Positions 1,692-31,143 of a DNA stretch of 32,301 nucleotides are shown here, piece by piece. The stretch comes from Pseudomonadota bacterium. Its GTDB lineage: Bacteria; Bdellovibrionota_B; Oligoflexia; Oligoflexales; RGVZ01. A program made the position numbers and the translations under genes. A model generated the notes under the pieces. It had not been told where the DNA came from. It made no database searches and saw only the letters and a program-made list of their open reading frames with translations. The stretch spans positions 1-32,301 of the forward strand of contig JAPLFV010000278.1 in the NCBI GenBank assembly GCA_026390495.1. The letters are read 5' to 3'. Position 1 is the stretch's first letter. Each line of letters starts with the position of its first letter.

Positions 1692-2336
1692 TTGAATTCC
1701 CGTCTGAGAAATCTGGCACTTGATGTCGAAATAACTTTGAAAAAAATCGCCGCCGAGACGACGTCGTTCTCAGAAACAAGCAACATTTCATGCCTTAAGG
1801 GCTGTTCGGCTTGCTGCCACAATTCCGACAATGTTTGGGCGACCCCTTTAGAAATGCTACCCATGGCGTTCGATATTTTTGACCGTGGACTCGCTGGGAA
1901 ATATCTTGACCGTATTACAAGTGAACCAAATCGATGTACGGCTCATGAAGATCACGGAGGAAGATATGGTCGATGTATGGAATATAAGCACAGGCCAAGT
2001 ATCTGCAGGCTTTTTGGGTCATCAGTAAGGCTTAAACATAATCCACGGGGAGAAACAGTTCCGGAAGGGCTTTTTTGCAATTGGCAAAGGGACCATTTTA
2101 AAAAAGAAATTGAACAAATAGAAAATCTTCCCGTCGATCATAAGGATCTGTGCGTTGCAGGACATTTATCCAACCAATTTAACATTTCTTTTAGTAAAAA
2201 TCTTGAAGTAGAAATGCCAATAAATAAATCTTTGCAGAAGGCCCTAGAAATGATTATGCAAAATGAACACTATATTGAAATGCAGATGCAGGTACAGCAT
2301 AAAGATTCTGAAGTTCACCAATCAACAAAAATTTAG
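1692..2336 (+). CDS. YkgJ-like zinc/iron-chelating Cys-cluster protein
   Basis: The protein has 214 residues starting at TTG, with AAGG about 11 bases upstream. The cysteine cluster typical of the YkgJ (CxxCxxCC) family is visible: C34, C38, C41 and C42 in CLKGCSACC, then C82, C95 and C105 in the stretch ending RPSICRLFG. Family members are thought to bind Zn or an Fe-S centre; their reaction is generally unknown. The C-terminus is Met/Gln/His-rich (MQMQVQHK). The next gene starts nine bases after the stop, so this is the first gene of a likely three-gene operon. The cluster is seen; the metal-binding role is family knowledge. Confidence 0.85.
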   Translation: MNSRLRNLALDVEITLKKIAAETTSFSETSNISCLKGCSACCHNSDNVWATPLEMLPMAFDIFDRGLAGKYLDRITSEPNRCTAHEDHGGRYGRCMEYKHRPSICRLFGSSVRLKHNPRGETVPEGLFCNWQRDHFKKEIEQIENLPVDHKDLCVAGHLSNQFNISFSKNLEVEMPINKSLQKALEMIMQNEHYIEMQMQVQHKDSEVHQSTKI

Positions 2337-2345
2337 GAGTTCACA

Positions 2346-2990
2346 TTGTACTCTATTTTTAAAGATCCTTTCAGCGGTTTAACCCATATGGTCGGTGCCG
2401 CATTTGGGCTTATTGGTTTGGGATACATGATCGGGAAAATGAGCGAAAACACGTCATTCGATATGAAACTTTCCTTTGTCATCTTTGGCATCAGCATCGT
2501 CTTCATGTATGGAAGTAGCGCTGCCTATCATTTACTTCACGTTTCAGACCAAACAAGAAAGGCTTTAAGACGTGTTGATCACACGATGATCTTCTTTTTG
2601 ATTGCTGGAACCTATACTCCATTTTGCTTAGGTCCACTAAGAGAAACCTACGGGATCCCAATTCTTATAGTTATCTGGTCTATTGCGTTGCTAGGGTTTT
2701 TTGTGAAATTATTTTGGCTAGACGCGCCTCGATGGCTTTCAACCCTACTCTATCTAGGAATGGGCTGGATTTCAGTTTCAGCTATTGTACCGCTCATGAA
2801 TGCCCTATCAACCGAGGGCCTCTATAATCTCGTGGGTGGCGGGGTATTGTACTCAATTGGCGCGGTTATATACGCCTTTAAATGGCCAGATCCATATCCC
2901 CCTCACTTTGGATTTCATGAGATTTGGCACTTGTTTGTATTGGCAGGCACAACTTGCCATTTTATAAGTGTATTGACCTTCTTAAATTAG
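2346..2990 (+). CDS. Hemolysin III family (PAQR/HlyIII) membrane protein
   Basis: The protein has 214 residues and about seven hydrophobic helices. It starts at TTG with AGGAG six bases upstream, at the very end of the previous gene. The conserved PAQR metal site is present: YGSSAAYHLLH (S57, H62, H65), RVDH (D78) and HEIWH with a later H (H191, H195, H205). The fold is that of the alkaline ceramidase/adiponectin receptor (CREST) hydrolases; HlyIII members are inner-membrane proteins of uncertain physiological role, despite the name. It sits between a YkgJ-like and a YecM-like gene in the same orientation, which suggests cotranscription. Family call secure, function not. Confidence 0.92.
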   Translation: MYSIFKDPFSGLTHMVGAAFGLIGLGYMIGKMSENTSFDMKLSFVIFGISIVFMYGSSAAYHLLHVSDQTRKALRRVDHTMIFFLIAGTYTPFCLGPLRETYGIPILIVIWSIALLGFFVKLFWLDAPRWLSTLLYLGMGWISVSAIVPLMNALSTEGLYNLVGGGVLYSIGAVIYAFKWPDPYPPHFGFHEIWHLFVLAGTTCHFISVLTFLN

Positions 2991-3020
2991 TATTCTTTCT
3001 TGAGGGAGTGCTTCGTTTTT

Positions 3021-3536
3021 ATGAATCAGGAAAACAATTCATTTTTTGCAGACCTCACTAAATTCACGAATCAGTTGATTGGCGAATTGAGGCACGAAAT
3101 TCTTCCAACTGAGTTTCGCATGATTGATCATGTCTGTTACCGAGTCTCAACTTTAGAGCGATACCATCAGATGTGTGAATTTTTGGCAAACTATGGACCA
3201 AGAATCTCTGATGCCATCATCAATGGCAGGCCCATCTCAGTTTATAAGTTAACCAATACCATTCCTTTGCAGTCAGGATTTGCAATCAACCTCATAGAAC
3301 TGCCATCGCCAAAACCAGGTCGTCATTACGATGAGGGCTTCGAGCATATTGAAGTCGTAATTGATTCGAATCTTGAAACTTTTATGCAAAAGCACAGTCA
3401 TTTAACTTTTGATACCGCTAATCAGTTTGCAAAAATTAATCGAGACATTTCCTCAACATTCAAAACTGGTCTGGTAAAATTTCATGAGCAAAGTCTTGAG
3501 GACATTATTGCGGCCGAGAACCAAAGCACCAACTGA
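3021..3536 (+). CDS. YecM family VOC-fold protein
   Basis: The protein has 171 residues and resembles E. coli YecM throughout its length: DHVCYR (36-41), INGRPISVYKL (67-77), IELP (92-95), FEHIEVV (107-113) and KFHEQSLEDIIAAE near the end. YecM has the vicinal-oxygen-chelate fold and is predicted to bind metal; the reaction is unknown. I chose ATG 3021, which follows GAGGGAG about 12 bases upstream; a TTG at 3000 would add seven residues that do not look like the family. It lies 30 bases after the hemolysin III gene and closes the operon. Confidence 0.87.
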   Translation: MNQENNSFFADLTKFTNQLIGELRHEILPTEFRMIDHVCYRVSTLERYHQMCEFLANYGPRISDAIINGRPISVYKLTNTIPLQSGFAINLIELPSPKPGRHYDEGFEHIEVVIDSNLETFMQKHSHLTFDTANQFAKINRDISSTFKTGLVKFHEQSLEDIIAAENQSTN

Positions 3537-19167: not shown

Positions 19168-22100
19168 TTACGGCGCGGGACGAACGATGATACGGTTGTT
19201 TGATTTGTCTGAAATGAATATTTGTGCTCCCAATTTAATGATAGACGCAGGTGCATTTAGAGACGTTTCCGAAAAGCCCCCAAAGTTAACGGTGTTGGTC
19301 GTCAAGGTTGTTTGACCCAAAACTACATCCGCGGCCTGTCCGTTTGTTGTAGGAATTGTATTCCAAACTAAAATTCTATTGTTTCCGCCGTCTGCAACAT
19401 AGAGCTTGGTACCATCGCTATAAACGGAAGTTGGACTTGACAGGCTAGACGCGGAAACACCGCCATTATTGGCAGTATTGCTGGTCAGATTTGGCTGACC
19501 AAGCGCAAAACTAGCGGACTGTCCGGATACCGTTGGCATCGCGTTCCATACCAGAACTCTGTGATTGGAAGCGTCAGCAATAAACAGTTTGGTACCGTCG
19601 CTAAAAATGCCGGTTGGTCCTGATAACGTAGATCCCGACAGCCCTCCAGTATTTGCGGTTACAGTCGTCAAATTCGGTTGTCCAAGTGCGAAATTCGCGG
19701 CTTGACCAGAAGAAGTCGGTAGGGCATTCCAAACAAGGACTCGGTGGGATGTCAAATCTGAGACGAACAACTTCGTGCCGACACTAAATACATCTGACGG
19801 TACATCAAGTCCCGTTGCGGTGAATCCTGAGGTATTTGAAACAAGATCAGGTTGCCCCAAGGCAAAGTCCGCTGCCTGACCATTCGACGTCGGAATGGAG
19901 TTCCAAACCAATACTCTGGCATTTGTCGAGTCTGCCACAAACAACTTTGTGCCATTCGAAAAAACTCCGTATGGGTTACTCAATGTCGACCCGGATATAC
20001 TTGGAGTGTTGATCGTTCTCGTTGAGAAGCTGCTCTGACCCAGCACCACGTTAGCAGCCTGCCCAGAAGACGTAGGAATGCTATTCCAAACCAGAATTCG
20101 GTGATTTATCCGATCAGCAACGAACAGTCTTGTACCGTCACTTTGAATAGCTTGAGGTGATCTCAAACTATTGGATGCAGGCAGCACATGATTTGCTGTT
20201 GACTGTGAAAAATCTGTCTGACCGAGAACAAAACTCGCGCTTTCACCGGAGGTAGTAGGAATCGAGTTCCACACTAGAACACGATTGTTTACATAGTCAG
20301 CGACAAACAATTTTGAGCCGTCACTGTAAGTGGAGCAAGCGAAATTTACAGTAGATCCTGAAATGCCTCCATTATTTCCTGTGTTTGAACTAAAATTGGG
20401 CTGACCTAACACATAGTCTGCGGCCTGCCCAGTTGTTGTCGGAATTGTGTTCCAAACAAGAATCCGACTATTGAACATGTCCGCTACAAACATTTTTGTA
20501 CCCACAACAAAAACGCCGTATGGTTGGTTCACTGAAGTACTAGACAATCCGCCGCTATTAGAAGCGAAAGATGTAAAGTTAGTCTGCCCTAGAACCAAAT
20601 CCGGAGCCTGCCCGGAAACAGTTGGCATGGTGTTCCATATCAAAATTCTATTGTTATAAGTATCTGCAACAATCAATTTTGTGCCGGTGCTATACACTCC
20701 ACCGGGTAAATACAGCCCGGTTGCGGTGGCACTCGACGAAACATGCGCGACTAGATCGACCTGACCTAAAGCAATGTTGGCTGGCGCAGCTGTGGAGGTC
20801 GGAATGGTATTCCAAATTAAAATCCGGTTATTACTGTAGTCAGAGACGAAAAGCCGAGTGCCATCGCCAACCACGGTCCACGGACCATTTAATGTAGTAG
20901 CTGAAGCACTCCCTCCTCCGCCATTTGCGGTCATTGATGTAAAATTAACTTGTCCCAAAACAAAATCAGCAGCTTGACCTGAGCTTGTGGGAATTGAGTT
21001 CCACGCAAGAACGCGGTTATTTAGACGATCAACAACAAAGAGCTTCGTACCATCACTGTAAATTCCAGTTGGAGTATTCAAGGTTGACGCAGATATTCCT
21101 CCGTTGTTTGCGGTCGTAGAAAACAAATCTGGCTGACCCAAAGCAAAACTCGCGGCCTGACCCGAGGCCGTCGGAATAGTATTCCAAACAAGAACTCGAT
21201 GGTTCCCACTGTCACAAACAAATAGCTTTCCACCTACGATTATTGTCGACACAGGTGTGCTCATTCCTTTTTCCATATGCGCCATTGACACCGACGATGA
21301 CTGACCGAGTGCAAATGTTCCGCGCAGAGTAAGATTGAAGGAGCTTTGCGCGCTACGATTAGATGAATTTGAAACAGTAACCGTAAGCGTCACATTTCCA
21401 ACAGCAGTTGAAACTGGGGTCACAACTGCTGTGCATGTCGGATAGGTGCCGCCCCATACAACGCTTCCTGGCAAAACTAAAGAATGGTCTGAAGATGATA
21501 GACTTAAAAATGAACTGCTACAGTCCAACGTAGAACCTGTGTCGCCGATGGTAAAGGGAATCGCGGAGGTCGACGAATTTACATCGACACTTTGCGTTGA
21601 AATGGCGGAAATTGTAGGAGTCGTCAACGCTACGGAACCAGAGGTCGCCGTTGATGCCACGCCATTTATGACTAACGCTTTATTTGCGCCAAGGCTATTG
21701 GCCTCACCAGGACCGGGCAATTTCAAACTCACGGAAACTCCAAAGCTGTCAATAATAGTACCTGAATTCAAAGCCAGAGAGCTCGTCGACAGGTAGTCGA
21801 GATCAGTTGAGGAATGAGCAGATGCGACGGTGTAATTAAATGTCAACGTCTTGCTTCCGCTTCCAGCAGAGTAATCTACAATGGCATCCACGGAACCCGT
21901 CTCAAGAGTTAATGAAGGATTTCCTTTGACAAAAACCACCTCCGAAAAATTGACCTGAATCGCAATGGCATCGCCTGTGATGTATCTGCCGTCCGCTTTG
22001 TCAGCGGAAACAGAGATTAGTTTTACATTAGAAGCTGCATTTTTTTTGCCGGTTCGTTTTGAGATCTTAAATGAAGATTCACATCCAAACAGCAAAAGCA

Positions 22101-22188
22101 AAAAAGTAAAAACCTGAATCGCGATTGTACAAGACAAAATTCTAAAGGAAGGTTTTTCACCATATTTGAAGACTTGAAACAGCTTCAT
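19168..22188 (-). CDS. Lipoprotein with about 12 NHL-like beta-propeller repeats
   Basis: The protein has 1006 residues. ATG 22188 has AAGGGAA upstream; an in-frame ATG at 22218 has none. The signal peptide ends in lipobox LLFGC with Cys 36. Residues about 55-165 form a beta module (GDAIAIQVNFSEVVFVKG, then LTFNYTVA and LDY) of the bacterial Ig-like type. A linker with two Cys follows. From about residue 300 to the end there are some 12 repeats of about 60 residues with the NHL core: GTKLFVADxxNNRVLVWNxIPT, then GQAAxFxLGQ. Twelve blades would fit two six-bladed propellers. It is probably anchored to the outer membrane and binds protein or polysaccharide. The gene is bracketed by copies of the pbpC 3' end. 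Confidence 0.9.
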   Translation of the reverse strand: MKLFQVFKYGEKPSFRILSCTIAIQVFTFLLLLFGCESSFKISKRTGKKNAASNVKLISVSADKADGRYITGDAIAIQVNFSEVVFVKGNPSLTLETGSVDAIVDYSAGSGSKTLTFNYTVASAHSSTDLDYLSTSSLALNSGTIIDSFGVSVSLKLPGPGEANSLGANKALVINGVASTATSGSVALTTPTISAISTQSVDVNSSTSAIPFTIGDTGSTLDCSSSFLSLSSSDHSLVLPGSVVWGGTYPTCTAVVTPVSTAVGNVTLTVTVSNSSNRSAQSSFNLTLRGTFALGQSSSVSMAHMEKGMSTPVSTIIVGGKLFVCDSGNHRVLVWNTIPTASGQAASFALGQPDLFSTTANNGGISASTLNTPTGIYSDGTKLFVVDRLNNRVLAWNSIPTSSGQAADFVLGQVNFTSMTANGGGGSASATTLNGPWTVVGDGTRLFVSDYSNNRILIWNTIPTSTAAPANIALGQVDLVAHVSSSATATGLYLPGGVYSTGTKLIVADTYNNRILIWNTMPTVSGQAPDLVLGQTNFTSFASNSGGLSSTSVNQPYGVFVVGTKMFVADMFNSRILVWNTIPTTTGQAADYVLGQPNFSSNTGNNGGISGSTVNFACSTYSDGSKLFVADYVNNRVLVWNSIPTTSGESASFVLGQTDFSQSTANHVLPASNSLRSPQAIQSDGTRLFVADRINHRILVWNSIPTSSGQAANVVLGQSSFSTRTINTPSISGSTLSNPYGVFSNGTKLFVADSTNARVLVWNSIPTSNGQAADFALGQPDLVSNTSGFTATGLDVPSDVFSVGTKLFVSDLTSHRVLVWNALPTSSGQAANFALGQPNLTTVTANTGGLSGSTLSGPTGIFSDGTKLFIADASNHRVLVWNAMPTVSGQSASFALGQPNLTSNTANNGGVSASSLSSPTSVYSDGTKLYVADGGNNRILVWNTIPTTNGQAADVVLGQTTLTTNTVNFGGFSETSLNAPASIIKLGAQIFISDKSNNRIIVRPAP

Positions 22189-22572
22189 TTTTGATTCCCT
22201 TTTAGTGTCACCAGCCAATCCATGAAAAGTGGAATTGGGGACCCAAGTTTTGCACCAATACTATATAGGGATTCGGCATCTATCCTAAAAAACTAAGTGA
22301 CACCTGGTTTGGATATCTAACTATCTGTAAATATTGCGTTTAAAAAACCCAAGGGACTCACGAATGGAAGATTTACAAGTATCACCCGAGAGCATTGCGC
22401 TGGAAAACTCAGTACTTTGCACGAGCTGAATCTAGAGGGGTTGGATTAACTTTATAATCAACCCTAGACCATTGTGGATTAACCTTATTGATCGTAAAGC
22501 AGAATATTGAAATGCATCACCCAAGCCATTCCAAATCAGTGTCCTCTTAGGATCCATCTAACTCAAGACGTC
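22189..22572. other. Intergenic region upstream of the NHL lipoprotein gene
   Basis: No convincing gene. A 21-codon frame (22364-22429, +) has AAGGGA upstream but no similarity that I recognise. GGATTAAC occurs twice (22443-22450 and 22476-22483), each followed by a TTAT...ATC pattern, 33 bases apart, so it could be a tandem regulator site. The promoter of the NHL gene (minus strand) must lie here. Confidence 0.4.
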
Positions 22573-22613
22573 GATTTACAAAACCGCACTCACTTCAACA
22601 CGCCTCGTTGCAA
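22573..22613 (-). repeat. pbpC: Direct repeat copy B: functional pbpC 3' end
   Basis: This is the last 38 bases of pbpC plus the three bases after it. It matches 19051-19091 with five differences in 41. Because this copy is in an intact gene, the other is taken as the derived one. Confidence 0.75.
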
Positions 22614-25050
22614 CTCGGCCCTTTTCGTCTACAACTCTGACGTCAAAGACACCCGGTTTATAGTCCCACATGAGAGTTTTTTCCGAATGAGAACCTGAGG
22701 GATTGGATGAACCGATAAACACATCATCAATAAACCAATTCAAAGTTCCACTATCCGGCAAGCTCTTTGCATCCAATGGCAATGCATCACTGGTTCGCAA
22801 TGATTCAATGGGCCTCTTGTAAATGAGATATGCTTGCGGTGACGTGATCTCAAGATCTACGAACTCTGGTTTTGAGCCTGACTCTACGACTGACGTTTGA
22901 GCGCAGCCACTTTCGAATGGTGGCAATGTTCCAATTTTTATGCCGACTTTTGCCAAATACTGATAAACATGACTAGGCCACATTTCAAAAGATTCTGCGC
23001 GATACTGACTCGGATCCAAACTTGAAACATCTAAAGGGCACTTCAATTTGCCAGTGTGAATATTGACTTCATACCGACCGTGAATGGGGCATGGCCTATA
23101 GGGCGACACGCCCGGAATTGAGTCCACCAACACTGTTTGATTGCAACCAGGGCCAGGTAGATCTCCAGAGAGAGCACAAACTTTCAATCGAACCAAATTC
23201 AAATCCTTCGTTTTTTTAGAAAGTTTTACCGAAGGTATTGATTTCAGGGAGGACAAAACGTCGGAAACTTTAAACCATAAAGGAGCTGCGACTTCGCGCC
23301 CTACGAGACTGTTGTTTGGGATCCCTTTAAAATCTCCCAACCAAACTCCGATAACATATTCGCCCACGGTTCCAACTGTCCAAGCATCGTGAAATCCAAA
23401 GGACGTTCCGGTTTTCCAAGCAGCCTTATCTTTATTCATAGATTGGTCAGTCGTTTGGCTTCCTCGCATCACAATATCGTCAACGCGATTCTGAGTTTGG
23501 AGCATCTTTTTGACAATCAAATTTGATTCGGGACTTAAAAATTGAGAGTCGATCTTATCAGGAAAATTAGCTTGATTAGGGGATTGCAGGAAATGTAACC
23601 TCTTCACTTTGCCTTCTTGAAAAAACATTGAATATAACTGCACCAATTCCCACATTGACATCTCTACCCCACCAACTGCCATCGGTAGACCATAGGCACT
23701 AACGTCACGCTTTAAGGAAACCCCCGCATTCAATAATCGATCATACAATTGGTTCACACCAACTTCTTTTAAAAGAGCAATTGCCGGAATATTGCGGCTA
23801 CGTGTTAATGCTTCGGTAGCAGAAATTGGACCTACAAAATCACGATCATAATTTTCTGGATCATAGACACCATAAGAGTTAGGAACATCAAAGAGCACTG
23901 ACTGGGAATTGATGATTCCCGCATCCAGTGCCAATCCAAAAATAAAAGGCTTAAGAGTTGAACCTGGAGATCGTTTAGCTCGTATCCCGTCTACTTGACC
24001 TTGAATGGAAGTATCAAAAAAATTAGCCGAACCAATGTAGGATTTAACAGTCATCGTTGGACCGTGAACAACCAAAATGGCTCCGTTATTAATTTTATTC
24101 TTTGCAAGGACTGAAAGTTCTTGGGTAAGAACCTCTCTTAAGGTCCGTTGCAAACTCAGATTCAAAGTGGTTTTTACTGTTCCAGAGCTATAGACCGTAG
24201 GAGACGGAATCATCGCTTCCAATCTTTCCGTTAAATGTGACGCTTGGTGTAACAGACTTTGAGAGGCGGCACCTTGAATGGATTGCGCCTGCTCCCATAA
24301 CTGATCGCATTGAAGTTTGGGAATATGTTGTTCAGAACAATAGGATCTGGTCAATAGCAGCAAACTCTTCAAATGAGTCGACGTAAGAACATTTGCGTTG
24401 GATAAATCCCTATGAACGGGATTCTGTGGCACCAATACAAGTCTAAGAGCCTCTGCTTCAGTCAGATCTATGGACTCTTTATTAAAGTAGATCCAGGATG
24501 CCGCTCCGACTCCCTCGATGCTGGCTCCGAAAGGAGCCAAATTGAGATAGCCTTCCAGAATCTCATTTTTTGACAAATGGGATTCCAAGCCAATAGCTAG
24601 CCAAATTTGCTTTAACTTTCCTGCCGGTGTCTTCGTATCCAGTCGCCAAATCATTCGAGCTAATTGCATTGAGAGGGTTGAACCGCCACCTGCTCCGGAT
24701 TGACTTCGGAAGTACTGCCATGCAGATCTAGCAACTGAAAGGTAATTAATGCCAGGATGAAAGTAAAACCAGCGATCCTCTTTCAATATCAATTGAGTCT
24801 TCAGATGATTTGGAAATCCATCAAGGCCAGTCCACAATCTAAATCGCCCATCTTTTGAGGTTGTCAAACGCAAAAGGTCTCCTCTTTCATCGGTGTAAGC
24901 CTTTGAAAAAGTCATTTGCCGAATAACACCAAGGTCAGTGCTATGATATGCAATCTGCTGCACCAAAAAGAGACCTATAGCGTAGGCTGCGGTCAAATAG
25001 AACAGTCCAGATCGCAGGCCCCTAGCGAGCTTTAATAGTGATTGATCCAC
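22576..25050 (-). CDS. pbpC: Penicillin-binding protein 1C (glycosyltransferase/transpeptidase)
   Basis: The protein has 824 residues. It is a class A PBP anchored by one N-terminal helix (about 14-33). The GT51 glycosyltransferase has EDRWFYFHPG (catalytic E91) and GAGGGSTLSMQLAR (119-132). The transpeptidase has SPGSTLKP (Ser364, Lys367), SRN (418-420) and KTGT (546-549). A C-terminal domain (about 735-824) corresponds to the PBP1C-specific BiPBP_C domain. All catalytic residues that I can place are present, so it should be active in periplasmic peptidoglycan synthesis. It starts at GTG 25050 with AGAGG upstream and overlaps the A2M C-terminal ORF by 29 bases, so the two are translationally linked. 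PBP1C commonly pairs with bacterial alpha-2-macroglobulin. Confidence 0.95.
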   Translation of the reverse strand: MDQSLLKLARGLRSGLFYLTAAYAIGLFLVQQIAYHSTDLGVIRQMTFSKAYTDERGDLLRLTTSKDGRFRLWTGLDGFPNHLKTQLILKEDRWFYFHPGINYLSVARSAWQYFRSQSGAGGGSTLSMQLARMIWRLDTKTPAGKLKQIWLAIGLESHLSKNEILEGYLNLAPFGASIEGVGAASWIYFNKESIDLTEAEALRLVLVPQNPVHRDLSNANVLTSTHLKSLLLLTRSYCSEQHIPKLQCDQLWEQAQSIQGAASQSLLHQASHLTERLEAMIPSPTVYSSGTVKTTLNLSLQRTLREVLTQELSVLAKNKINNGAILVVHGPTMTVKSYIGSANFFDTSIQGQVDGIRAKRSPGSTLKPFIFGLALDAGIINSQSVLFDVPNSYGVYDPENYDRDFVGPISATEALTRSRNIPAIALLKEVGVNQLYDRLLNAGVSLKRDVSAYGLPMAVGGVEMSMWELVQLYSMFFQEGKVKRLHFLQSPNQANFPDKIDSQFLSPESNLIVKKMLQTQNRVDDIVMRGSQTTDQSMNKDKAAWKTGTSFGFHDAWTVGTVGEYVIGVWLGDFKGIPNNSLVGREVAAPLWFKVSDVLSSLKSIPSVKLSKKTKDLNLVRLKVCALSGDLPGPGCNQTVLVDSIPGVSPYRPCPIHGRYEVNIHTGKLKCPLDVSSLDPSQYRAESFEMWPSHVYQYLAKVGIKIGTLPPFESGCAQTSVVESGSKPEFVDLEITSPQAYLIYKRPIESLRTSDALPLDAKSLPDSGTLNWFIDDVFIGSSNPSGSHSEKTLMWDYKPGVFDVRVVDEKGRVATRRVEVSAVL

Positions 25051-25816
25051 CTTTGCCTCTAAAAATTTTATCTTCTATATACATCGATTTCGCATAAGTA
25101 GGTGGTACGTAAAATGTTCCCGAAGCCGTTGCGCGAATCTTATAAAAAATTTGAGTCACCTCATCCAACAAACTTCCATAGACAACGACTCGGTCTTCCC
25201 TGGCATCGATATTTTCAAATCTGAAATTTGAAATTGAACCGAAGTTTGGACCCGCAAATGCCTTTGTCACGCCTAATAATCTATCAAAAATTGACCCAAA
25301 ATCGCCTTCTCCGGAACCCTCTTCCGGCATTCCCCCCTCTACATCTCCCTCTTCTCGCTGAATTTCATCCTCGTAAGGAGACGAATGACTATCTCCGGCA
25401 CTGACTATCTGAGATGGCAGGGAATCAAGTTGTAGCTCTGTTCCTCCTGGAAGTAGGTCGACAATAGCCATGTTCGACAAAGTCCCTTTTAGAGAACGCG
25501 CCAAAACTCGTACTTCGATCTCATCTCCCACTACAAATGAATCTGACTCCTTACCATTGACAACGTAGTAGCGTTTCAGCTCCATGCCGTTTTCAATTTC
25601 TTTAACAGATTTTTCTCGATCAAATCCATTCTGCACAATATTCATGTAGATCGGAAGTGCCCCGCCACTCCTGTTTATCGAAATACTTTTGGCTTCCACA
25701 GGAATATTTCCGGTCAAAATCGACTCGCCAGAAAGCTTTACATCAAAAGATTTATTGGATTGATCCATGAAAGACGATGAAAAATCCTTTGTTGCACTCG
25801 CACCATTCAGTGGCAA
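25022..25816 (-). CDS. Alpha-2-macroglobulin C-terminal fragment (separate frame)
   Basis: 264 codons from a TTG without a ribosome site, overlapping the 3' end of the large A2M ORF by 10 bases in another frame. The end, GTFYVPPTYAKSMYIEDKIF, is the typical final segment of bacterial A2M. The frame extends upstream to codons AGWTALAIGAYSS, which continue the thioester-domain helices of the large ORF. An acidic insert (EDEIQREEGDVEGG) lies near the middle. It is thus the missing C-terminus of the A2M protein after a frameshift near 25857-25864. It has no signal peptide, so alone it would stay in the cytoplasm. It may be produced by frameshifting, be phase-variable, or reflect a real disruption or a sequencing error. 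Confidence 0.75.
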   Translation of the reverse strand: MPLNGASATKDFSSSFMDQSNKSFDVKLSGESILTGNIPVEAKSISINRSGGALPIYMNIVQNGFDREKSVKEIENGMELKRYYVVNGKESDSFVVGDEIEVRVLARSLKGTLSNMAIVDLLPGGTELQLDSLPSQIVSAGDSHSSPYEDEIQREEGDVEGGMPEEGSGEGDFGSIFDRLLGVTKAFAGPNFGSISNFRFENIDAREDRVVVYGSLLDEVTQIFYKIRATASGTFYVPPTYAKSMYIEDKIFRGKGGSITIKAR

Positions 25817-28800
25817 CGAGCTGTAGGCGCCGATAGCCAGCGCCGTCCAACCTGCAATATATATGTGTTATGTCTTTGGTCAGATAACAATGTAGCCAAT
25901 GATCCTATGTATTCTGCGGCATCTTTTCCGACTAAATTTGGAAAATGCTTGGACATGAGATAGATATACTGGGACTTCAAACTATCAAGGGAGTGATAAA
26001 ATGTTCCTGTTGAAGGCAATTCACCAACGGATTTGAAGGATACATTTTTAATGATTCGGTCAGCATCTTTGTCCATGCCTCTAAGCTTATATGACGATGC
26101 GATATATACTGCCGATAGAGACTTCGTCCAATTTAACTCCTTTGATACCGGCAAATTCTTTGAAAAGTCCTCGTATACTTCGTGCAAAAATTGCGCATTA
26201 ACCAATCCTGCTCTCGCAAGTATGTAAGTAGAAAACGCAACGTCTAACTGTCCACTTGGATTTCGATTGACGCGATTAGACCTGATATACTCGGTTATAT
26301 GATTCATTAGTTTTTGAAACGAGCTATCGCGCTTCATAACTTTAGAGTCCAACATTTCCACGTATAAAAGACCTACGTATGCATTCAACATACCTGATTG
26401 AGCGCCATTAGAATTCCAATATCCGAATCCACCAATCATGGACTGGCGCGTTCGAATCATCGCATTTGCCTTCTCGAGAAATGCAATGGATTTTGATTTG
26501 TCACTAATAATTTCCTTGTTATTGACGAATGCCACGATCGGTAGGGACTGGCTTGTAATCTGCTCCGTACACCCATGAGGATACGCCTCTAAAAAACTGA
26601 CGAGTGCTTGAGCAAATCCAAGTGGCAGAGAGCTAAATGACACCTTTCCATCATAAAGCTCATGATACATTTCACGAGTCACTTCAATTTTATCTGACGA
26701 GCCCTTCACAATCTTACTACCCACTGTTGTTGCATAAGGTGTACCTGGGCGAATGCTTAGGGTTTCCTCGTGAATCACAGACTCCGCTGAATTATTCGCT
26801 AAACTAACTTTGAAATTTACAGAATGCGACTTTAAAACCCCTTCAGCCTTAAACTCAAATTTTGCAACAACCTCTTTGCCTTCGGAAACGGTCAACTCTT
26901 GCCTAGGTTTGCTAAGAGTTAAACCCTCGCTTGCGGTCGCCTCTACGATCACTTTGGCATCTTTCCCAGATCCAATCGATTGATTACTAATCGTGACTTC
27001 ACCGACGAATTGATCACCCGGCGCAACGAATAAAGGTAAAACAGGAGAAATGACAAATGAGCCAACCCGCCGCCCTTTAGAACTTGCGGTGCCAAATGAA
27101 GAATCACCTATCGCTACAGCAATGAGCCGATAGGATCCGTTAAAATGTGATGGTAGCTCAACGTCTACAACGTTAACCCCAGCTTTTCCGTCAAATATCC
27201 CGCTCCAAAATGCCGCTGGTGGCAAAGACTTCCTTCTAAATGGATTAATATTCCGGGCCAATGCTCCGTCTTGATCGCCACCTGCAGCGGCCTTCATCGC
27301 AATAGAATACTCCGGAAGAATCAAATCTAAAATCTGCCTTGTTTCCACCTCATGAGCCTTCTTTCTAAAAAAGTGCTTCAAAGGATCCGGATTTCGATAA
27401 CGGGCAACCTGCAAAATACCTTCGTCAACAGCAAACAAGACGACGCGCATTGGCTCACTTAATGTCATATTTACCGGAACTTTGCGATCGGGCTTTGTCA
27501 CTTCTGGATGTTCGAGTTTAATGGACGAACTATAATTCTTAATACTTACCCGCAGAGGAGTAATCGCATAAGAAAGTGATTTTGTATAAATTTCTGGAGA
27601 GCTACTTGATCGCACATGAGTCACGTGAACATATGCGTTTCCAGTGATCCCCTTTGGAATCTTGAATTTTTGCACACTCGATGCCTGTCCCGATTTATAC
27701 CAGGTTGAGCTTAGAACCCTGTCAGACTCGACAGTAATGTAACCAGAGCCAGCATAAGGTGCCTTTATCTCGAGATCTGCCTCTTCACCGATATCATATT
27801 CTTTTTTGGAAAGTTTTAATTTCAGCTCCGAGTTACGATCTAGGCCCCGATCTAAGTCACCTGATCCTGCGATTGAAAAATGAACTGAGGCAAGCGTGGC
27901 TCCATCGCTATTAAAAAACTTAATGTCATAATCTCCAGATTTATCGCTGGGCAATTGATAGCGAAAGCCTTCTGCGCCAATTGAAATATCCTTAGACTCG
28001 ACAATTTCTTCCACTTGTTTTGATTGATATCGATAGAGACCGTCACTACCAGCAACTAAAGTTGACAAATATTTTGTTCGAAACAGTGATAATTTCAGTC
28101 CCTTGGTCTCGACCTTCTGCAGGAGGTTATTGAGCGATATAATATCTACATGTCTCTTTGAATTTTGTTTGATCCATTGCAAATCACCGTCAGACTTCAC
28201 ACCTAAAATATAATCTCGATCTGCAACAATAGCTTGAGCAACTCTAGCAACAAACCGTCCTCCGCTTTTCTCAAACGCCTCTGATACAACTGACAATTTA
28301 TAAAAGCCATTATCGTTATTGAGATCAGGCAAACTCTCAAAAACCATGCCTTGCTCGTCGGTTTCGAAATCTCCAAAAGATCGGTCATTGACCGCATCAG
28401 TTCGACTTTCAGGAAAAAAGAAATTCCAGTCCTCGTAGCCCTTCATTTCTGGAAAGCTTGGAACTAATGAATACTTAAATTGCACCTTATTACCTTCAGC
28501 AGGTCCACCAAAAAGATTTTCAACCTTTGTGCGAACCTTATATTGAGACGGCTTAATCCAAGCCTTCTCCAAAATCTTCGAGGGCAAATCGCCTTTCTCA
28601 ATGACTAAGTCTGTATCCGATTTCAAACGATCTGGCAAAAATTCTTGGATCCTTAGATTCGTAGATCCCACGGTTACTTTTCGTTTATCATCCTTAATCA
28701 TTTGAACCGAAGCTATATATGGCCCGGTCAACCAATGGGTCTCTGTTTTGATGCGATGCTCATCAAAGCCAAATTTCCCAGCCTCAAATGATCGCTTCAA

Positions 28801-31143
28801 TACCTCCTGACCACGTGGATTTGTCAATATCAACTCCAATGGAAGCCCAGCCGGAAGCTGAATCAATCCAGGTCCTTTAATAATTGACCCAACGATCACG
28901 TCCTCACCGGGTCGATATAGTCCTCGGTCAGAAAAGACGTATCCATCTATACTGGAAGGGTCCAGGACTTCTCCGCCAACATCAAATCGACTCGTTGAAA
29001 GTCTGCGCGAAGAATCCCGATTCACTGGAAGAAATGATAGATCATCGTCTCTTCTTGCCGTCCATGCCACGGGTTCATTTTCGGCAGTTAACCCGACAAA
29101 GCTTTTAAACACTGCTGTGCCGTTTGAATCTGTTTTTTGAGAGACCAGCGTCACACCATTTCGCGCCAATAGACCTACATCAACATTCGCCGCAGGCTTT
29201 CCAGAAAGCAACTCCATCACATAGATAATAAAGGTGCCATCTTTATTTCGTTTTGCCATCAAACCTAAATCAGTGACCAGTACAAAGCGCTTATCCTTAA
29301 ATCGCGAGTCGTTAAACTCATATTTATACTCTGGCATAGGCTCATCATCATCATCACTTTGCTCTGCCCGTTTCGATTTAAGGCTTTCAGGATCGTATTC
29401 TTCAATTGCCGCCAGGAAAAGCCCTCGCCTTTTTGTCGACTGATCAACACCGCTATTTGTTCTCAGAAACTTATTGAGGTCCAATCCAAAATAGTTGGTC
29501 TTTGTTTTAACATCACTTTGAAACTCGTGAAAATCCTCGAAGCGCTCCGAGAAATCACTGGAGGAAAAGCTCCAAAAACTTGGGGATGTAAACTGACTTT
29601 CATTGAATCGAACAAAATGATTGAGTTTATCAGGGGCTACCCGATAAAGTGTGGTCTTAACACCTTTAGCACCGTTCGATGTGATGTTAAGTCTTTTTTC
29701 ACCTGCCATCGAAAGCAAAGAGCCCTCATGCATAAATTTTATGTCTGTCGGCACTGCGGGAATTTTCAAAATTCTCTGCCATGTATCCGAAAGTTTATAA
29801 CCACCAAATGCTTCAAGGCCTCGCTTGACAGTTACAAACAAATGTCTTTTTTCCGCTACATCATGTTTAAAACCAATGACAGGAATGGGGGCTTTTTGAT
29901 TAACATCAAGTAAAGAAACCGATAATTTACGCGATTCCTTCAGAATCTTTTCATTGATCTCATTGGCATCCGACCATGCATAATTCATACGCGCTCTAGC
30001 TGCCTCCGGATCATCCGGATTTGAATCACGAGGGTCTTCCGGATTGATGGGCCTATTTATGGGAAGCTCATATAGTTCAATACTCTTGATCAAATCAGAA
30101 GGTTTTAAATTAGTCGTAAATGACACCGCCAATAGTGGCGCTAGATCACCATTTGATTCTTCTTTGATATAAGATGCATTAGCACTAACTACCTTTAAGA
30201 AGGAATCCAAAGCAGGCACTGAGAGAGGTATATCCATCTTCTCGGCAGAATTCCCTCCAAGTACTGACTGAGCCCCTGTATCGATCTTTAAAACCAGCTC
30301 CAACTCCCGCTCGGGTAAAGGTAGATTCTCGCTCTGTATATAGACACCCATGTCAAAGGGCTTATAGTTGAAGGTGACGTCATAAAGGTCTTTTCCTTCT
30401 GCATTTTCAGTATTATTTATCCGTCGAGTGGATCGAGATAATTTCACGGCATTTTCAAATGACTTTCGATCTATGGGATGAGTAAATGAAAGATCATAGG
30501 TCAGAATTTTCTTCAAAGGATCAAATGGATCTTGATAAAATTGCGACTTATTGTTCCTGAACGAAAATTTTGCCGTCGTAAATTCTAAACTGTACGTAGA
30601 TAGTACAATTTTTGAATTCAGAATTCGCTTTTCAATTTTGACAGTATATTTTTGATTTGGCACCCAATCCTTTTCAGGCAGAAACTGCAACTGAGAATCC
30701 CCAATAAAGGACCATGACCCTGCCATTGCAGGCGACAAAACAACTCCCTTATCCAAAGCTTTTCCAACCAAGTCGAGTTTGGCCGCAGAATTCTGAAAAT
30801 TGATAAACAACGTACTTGGCTTTGAGGTTGGACTGTATATTTGAGGGGTTGGCTTGACGATTGTCACTTTTGTAATAACAGGTGGTGGCAATTTCCACCA
30901 ATAATAGCCTCCATAGCTACCTACGCCGATTAAGAGCAATATAGATGTCAATATTGCATAAAACTTAGGGGCACTTTTTTCTTTCTGGCTCAGAATCCAA
31001 GCAAACATTTTTTTAAATGGATAAATCAACCACAAACCAAGAAACATAAGCCACTTTGGAGGAGACCAACTTCCTATCAAAAATTTCAAAATTTTTGAAA
31101 ACGCCGCAACAACTTGCCTAAAAAATTCAGATGCACGAGCCAT
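25807..31143 (-). CDS. Alpha-2-macroglobulin family protein (bacterial, YfhM-like), frameshifted near its end
   Basis: 1778 codons, ATG with AAAGGA upstream. A basic and hydrophobic N-terminus leads to a membrane helix at about 61-82, then YYWWKLPPP, so it is anchored in the inner membrane with the rest in the periplasm (E. coli YfhM is instead a lipoprotein). Macroglobulin domains follow, including SIDGYVFSDRGLYRPGEDV and VLFAVDEGILQVARY, typical of the family. The thioester motif GCTEQ is at about residue 1524, in YPHGCTEQ. This family traps proteases through the thioester and is believed to protect the periplasm. The last 16 residues (LQVGRRWLSAPTARCH) are not family-like: the frame is lost at an AT run and the true C-terminus is in the next ORF. 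Confidence 0.92.
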   Translation of the reverse strand: MARASEFFRQVVAAFSKILKFLIGSWSPPKWLMFLGLWLIYPFKKMFAWILSQKEKSAPKFYAILTSILLLIGVGSYGGYYWWKLPPPVITKVTIVKPTPQIYSPTSKPSTLFINFQNSAAKLDLVGKALDKGVVLSPAMAGSWSFIGDSQLQFLPEKDWVPNQKYTVKIEKRILNSKIVLSTYSLEFTTAKFSFRNNKSQFYQDPFDPLKKILTYDLSFTHPIDRKSFENAVKLSRSTRRINNTENAEGKDLYDVTFNYKPFDMGVYIQSENLPLPERELELVLKIDTGAQSVLGGNSAEKMDIPLSVPALDSFLKVVSANASYIKEESNGDLAPLLAVSFTTNLKPSDLIKSIELYELPINRPINPEDPRDSNPDDPEAARARMNYAWSDANEINEKILKESRKLSVSLLDVNQKAPIPVIGFKHDVAEKRHLFVTVKRGLEAFGGYKLSDTWQRILKIPAVPTDIKFMHEGSLLSMAGEKRLNITSNGAKGVKTTLYRVAPDKLNHFVRFNESQFTSPSFWSFSSSDFSERFEDFHEFQSDVKTKTNYFGLDLNKFLRTNSGVDQSTKRRGLFLAAIEEYDPESLKSKRAEQSDDDDEPMPEYKYEFNDSRFKDKRFVLVTDLGLMAKRNKDGTFIIYVMELLSGKPAANVDVGLLARNGVTLVSQKTDSNGTAVFKSFVGLTAENEPVAWTARRDDDLSFLPVNRDSSRRLSTSRFDVGGEVLDPSSIDGYVFSDRGLYRPGEDVIVGSIIKGPGLIQLPAGLPLELILTNPRGQEVLKRSFEAGKFGFDEHRIKTETHWLTGPYIASVQMIKDDKRKVTVGSTNLRIQEFLPDRLKSDTDLVIEKGDLPSKILEKAWIKPSQYKVRTKVENLFGGPAEGNKVQFKYSLVPSFPEMKGYEDWNFFFPESRTDAVNDRSFGDFETDEQGMVFESLPDLNNDNGFYKLSVVSEAFEKSGGRFVARVAQAIVADRDYILGVKSDGDLQWIKQNSKRHVDIISLNNLLQKVETKGLKLSLFRTKYLSTLVAGSDGLYRYQSKQVEEIVESKDISIGAEGFRYQLPSDKSGDYDIKFFNSDGATLASVHFSIAGSGDLDRGLDRNSELKLKLSKKEYDIGEEADLEIKAPYAGSGYITVESDRVLSSTWYKSGQASSVQKFKIPKGITGNAYVHVTHVRSSSSPEIYTKSLSYAITPLRVSIKNYSSSIKLEHPEVTKPDRKVPVNMTLSEPMRVVLFAVDEGILQVARYRNPDPLKHFFRKKAHEVETRQILDLILPEYSIAMKAAAGGDQDGALARNINPFRRKSLPPAAFWSGIFDGKAGVNVVDVELPSHFNGSYRLIAVAIGDSSFGTASSKGRRVGSFVISPVLPLFVAPGDQFVGEVTISNQSIGSGKDAKVIVEATASEGLTLSKPRQELTVSEGKEVVAKFEFKAEGVLKSHSVNFKVSLANNSAESVIHEETLSIRPGTPYATTVGSKIVKGSSDKIEVTREMYHELYDGKVSFSSLPLGFAQALVSFLEAYPHGCTEQITSQSLPIVAFVNNKEIISDKSKSIAFLEKANAMIRTRQSMIGGFGYWNSNGAQSGMLNAYVGLLYVEMLDSKVMKRDSSFQKLMNHITEYIRSNRVNRNPSGQLDVAFSTYILARAGLVNAQFLHEVYEDFSKNLPVSKELNWTKSLSAVYIASSYKLRGMDKDADRIIKNVSFKSVGELPSTGTFYHSLDSLKSQYIYLMSKHFPNLVGKDAAEYIGSLATLLSDQRHNTYILQVGRRWLSAPTARCH

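Follow-up and report, generated by a model that had tools for sequence, protein, structure and literature searches.

The alpha-2-macroglobulin (A2M) gene carried by the window, the 32,301-nt stretch analysed here, is divided between two overlapping open reading frames (ORFs). We consider it probable, if far from certain, that this is one A2M gene interrupted by an extra AT unit, with replication slippage in the assembled population as the likeliest origin. Comparison with homologues shows a single gene in two frames, broken at a short AT run where two nucleotides appear to be surplus, and homologues that are unbroken. The two ORFs are best annotated as one interrupted A2M gene; the finding has little significance beyond annotation. 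The gene is otherwise an ordinary pbpC-linked, thioester-type bacterial A2M.

One A2M protein in two reading frames

On the minus strand the A2M ORF (31143-25807) is followed by a shorter ORF (25816-25022; 264 aa counted from its first TTG) and by pbpC (25050-22576), and both ORFs lie where a preliminary description of this DNA had placed them (Table 1). Six Pfam families score above cut-off in the first ORF: bMG3, MG2, bMG5, bMG6, the bait-region domain and the A2M domain. The ORF also has an intact thioester motif, YPHGCTEQ, in which Cys 1525, Glu 1527 and Gln 1528 are invariant, and an N-terminal membrane segment recognised by inspection. The second ORF, which the preliminary description had taken for the C-terminus of the family, indeed holds bMG10, the usual C-terminal domain (PF17973, E 1.4e-13), and matches the C-terminus of E. 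coli YfhM. The first ORF ends, as that description also held, in 16 residues unlike the family: those after HNTYI (LQVGRRWLSAPTARCH) have no alignment to it.

Table 1. Features at the A2M frame change and the neighbouring pbpC gene
Feature	Position	Strand	Details
A2M gene, N-terminal part	25807..31143	-	1778 aa; last 16 codons out of family frame
Rest of A2M protein, second frame	25022..25855	-	AGWTALAIGAYSS... to stop; with bMG10
Interval with both frames open, hence holding the frame change	25810..25867	-	stop codons
(AT)4 tract at the frame change	25857..25864	.	two nucleotides too many compared with the family
pbpC, penicillin-binding protein 1C	22576..25050	-	TIGR02073, 625.9 bits, above curated cut-off

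By sequence, the nearest solved structures are YfhM-type bacterial A2Ms. The gene shares with type I (YfhM/ECAM-type) A2Ms the MG domains, the bait-region domain, the CxEQ thioester, the bMG10 end and a pbpC gene directly downstream. It differs from them in its length (~2039 residues if read through), in having an N-terminal membrane segment with no obvious lipobox and in its frameshift, and it has ~31% identity to its nearest full-length relatives. Whereas a type I A2M is expected to have a single complete reading frame, here the frame changes within 25857-25864. As written, the gene is thus best read as an interrupted copy of the type I family rather than a functional member.

Because opening a new start cost it less than its high frameshift penalty, a coding-potential HMM overlooked the break, which was recovered by directly comparing the overlapping frames.

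Site and size of the frame change

The window has one copy of (AT)4, and it is placed exactly on the frame break. The mere presence of such a tract is unremarkable, as shuffled windows contain 0.5 copies on average and at least one copy in 42 of 100 shuffles, but its coincidence with the break is not. That the sole (AT)4 sits on precisely those few bases where the frame has to change suggests slippage as the cause. Downstream of the break, the second frame stays open over 277 codons with the composition of coding sequence, which makes the event recent or artificial.

To locate the switch, the 41 switches allowed by stop codons were scored against C-terminal profiles built from homologues alone, either the 8 near ones or all 77. 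With both profiles, the top three switches, which give identical products, skip two nucleotides at 25857, 25860 or 25863, within the (AT)4 where the preliminary description had put the change. Its prediction that removal of one AT unit would yield a 2039-residue product is likewise borne out by the homologue profile. With the near profile, the two-nucleotide switch scores 296.9 bits, compared to 292.2 for the best switch stepping one nucleotide back and 135.9, under half of the top score, for the first ORF with no switch. With the 77-sequence profile, the corresponding values for the two switches are 220.1 and 218.9. By these margins alone (4.7 and 1.2 bits, respectively), a shift of two nucleotides is supported rather than proven.

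The spacing of conserved residues speaks for a two-nucleotide surplus more clearly than do the profile scores. The conserved Thr of the N-T pair is separated from the next helix by 8 residues in 72 of the 77 homologues, by 7 in 5 and by 9 in none; dropping two nucleotides gives a spacing of 8, while stepping one nucleotide back gives 9. The precision of this argument is limited, as the closest homologues are only ~31% identical. The junction reads NTISSAYSILAIGAYS in the Arenicella relative, NTYSTAAAVKAFESYA in the Treponema bin and NTYI-AGWTALAIGAYS in the window gene.

Homologues are unbroken at the junction

Every one of the 77 aligned homologues keeps a single open frame across the junction, and none is split. 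The alignment required >350 residues after the thioester motif, which left out 12 further homologues; these either are truncated at contig ends or have no thioester motif, and inspection found none of them split, which dismissed the concern that the length filter was hiding split sequences. The preliminary description had named relatives consistently split at this same junction as evidence against its reading; no such relative was found among these homologues. When eight of the nearest homologues were read at the DNA level, none had an AT tract at the junction.

The nearest full-length relatives (~31% identity) are from Arenicella, Variovorax, a Treponema bin and a Bdellovibrionales bin. A scan of the genome collection with a single A2M protein found no close relative, and a second scan with an alignment as query gave 80 loci. 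The best full-length relatives of the A2M fall outside the phylum members searched. No A2M match was found in five same-genus genomes (G001-G005), some of which are incomplete, suggesting that members of the genus do not all need the gene. Lateral transfer or loss may possibly lie behind this distribution.

Origin of the frame change

Of the four causes that the preliminary description listed without choosing among them, recent mutation and sequencing error survive, while the evidence speaks against phase variation and programmed frameshifting. The most serious alternative to a mutation, which we regard as a real possibility though not the probable one, is that the surplus AT is a sequencing or assembly error and that the true sequence in the organism has three AT units, leaving the gene intact. 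The bin is fragmented, with the window being contig 370 of 431, and the A2M sequence downstream of the break has no further damage. In addition, two other genes in the same bin are broken. The single-copy sucA gene (2-oxoglutarate dehydrogenase E1; L180:7471-10190, bin contig C120 ~47470-50190) is divided into ORFs of 360 and 568 aa; at their junction (C120, ~48490) the frame changes and ~33 codons are absent, whereas in relatives it is one intact ORF of 935-964 aa (935-943 aa in same-genus relatives, at ~71% identity). The other, an HNH-type endonuclease gene (L130:6225-6315, bin contig C60), is interrupted by a perfect 38-nt tandem duplication. The broken sucA may possibly reflect assembly error or gene loss and fits imperfect assembly as well as decay. 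Damage to a core gene speaks for a degree of assembly error or for a mixed population. However, both the sucA and HNH breaks are large rearrangements, unlike a 2-nt error, and three breaks in ~122 kb of homology-covered sequence is within the range of real pseudogenes; the survey covered ~13% of the bin. Two further candidates were discarded: L140, the other stronger frame-overlap candidate beside sucA, is a normal gene boundary, and L145, picked up by the homology scan, resembled antisense noise. An (AT)4 tract seldom slips, which counts against a slippage mutation, but a dinucleotide tract of 8 nt is normally also read and assembled correctly. It is on this latter ground that we place a real mutation somewhat ahead of a data error.

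A contingency locus, in which the AT tract would switch A2M on and off by slipped-strand mispairing, is suggested by a dinucleotide tract exactly at the frame break of an envelope protein gene, where a change of one AT unit toggles the frame. We consider such phase variation improbable. The frame is similarly broken at a dinucleotide run in Helicobacter oipA and in the type III methyltransferase of Mycoplasma mycoides, but the A2M tract has only four units, fewer than the phase-variable dinucleotide tracts described, lies late in the gene (after ~86% of the protein) and is not conserved in the relatives. By comparison, a phase-variable Mycoplasma methyltransferase gene has 12 AG units (PMC3498834), and unit number is reported to be the main determinant of tract instability (PMC3899988). 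A search of 564 kb of the genome for long hypermutable tracts yielded 18 four-unit AT tracts and none longer. A mutator background was considered and rejected because mutS and mutL are both intact. It is just as doubtful that so short a tract would act as a switch, whether on/off or recoding, that controls a periplasmic protease trap and, through the gene overlap, its partner PBP1c.

Full-length protein could be produced from the gene as written by programmed ribosomal frameshifting or transcriptional slippage. The TATAT sequence permits exact re-pairing of tRNA-Tyr two bases on, from TAT to the overlapping TAT, and such a +2 slip would give the family-spaced NTYIAGW. Yet +2 recoding would be very unusual for a gene of this kind, no X XXY YYZ slippery heptamer is found in the open interval, and the RNA around the site folds like its shuffles (z -0.18). 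The simplest -1 shift would add one residue in a helix where no homologue has it, and none of the homologues has a frameshift here. As in dnaX, prfB and IS elements, two overlapping frames encode one protein family, but the A2M gene lacks their slippery site and stimulatory structure, has the wrong shift size and is not conserved in this respect. Recoding is thus very improbable. Least probable of all is that the ORFs are two separate genes encoding a two-chain A2M whose C-terminal part would be translated independently. The second ORF does run undamaged to its usual end, but no split homologue was seen among those examined, the split lies inside the thioester-domain region and the coding sequence extends upstream of any start. 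Moreover, there is no Shine-Dalgarno-like sequence ahead of TTG 25816 or ATG 25768, and by inspection the second part lacks its own signal peptide.

Our preferred reading, replication slippage at the short AT run, would place the surplus AT in the DNA itself and not just in the data. The 1778-residue truncated product would lack MG10 and the final part of the thioester domain; it would probably be inactive and unable to fold into a functional protease trap. A real mutation would mean that the protease trap is dispensable in the sampled population; if the surplus is a data error, the gene is another case of bin-level errors imitating frameshifts.

Genomic context

The pbpC start lies 29 nt before the A2M stop, so that the two genes overlap by 29 nt. 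pbpC is the usual operon partner of such A2M genes: A2M and pbpC are also adjacent in several same-phylum genomes and in the nearest relatives outside, a pairing already known in the literature (PMC3328433). Ribosomes halting early, at 25807, would miss the pbpC start; since that start overlaps the lost A2M stop, translation of pbpC may fall, possibly reducing PBP1c.

The window is the whole of its contig, and its GC content agrees with the remainder of the bin, which is estimated to be 91.6% complete and 3.3% contaminated. At 4.45 Mb, the bin is larger than the five same-genus genomes (2.1-3.3 Mb), and its GC content, as sampled, is ~42%, compared to 47.6% in G001. A 654-nt tandem repeat suspected at 1692-3536 of the window proved to be three unrelated proteins with no repeats. 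Adjoining pbpC on the minus strand is a 1016-aa protein with NHL repeats (19168-22218), which is probably exported.
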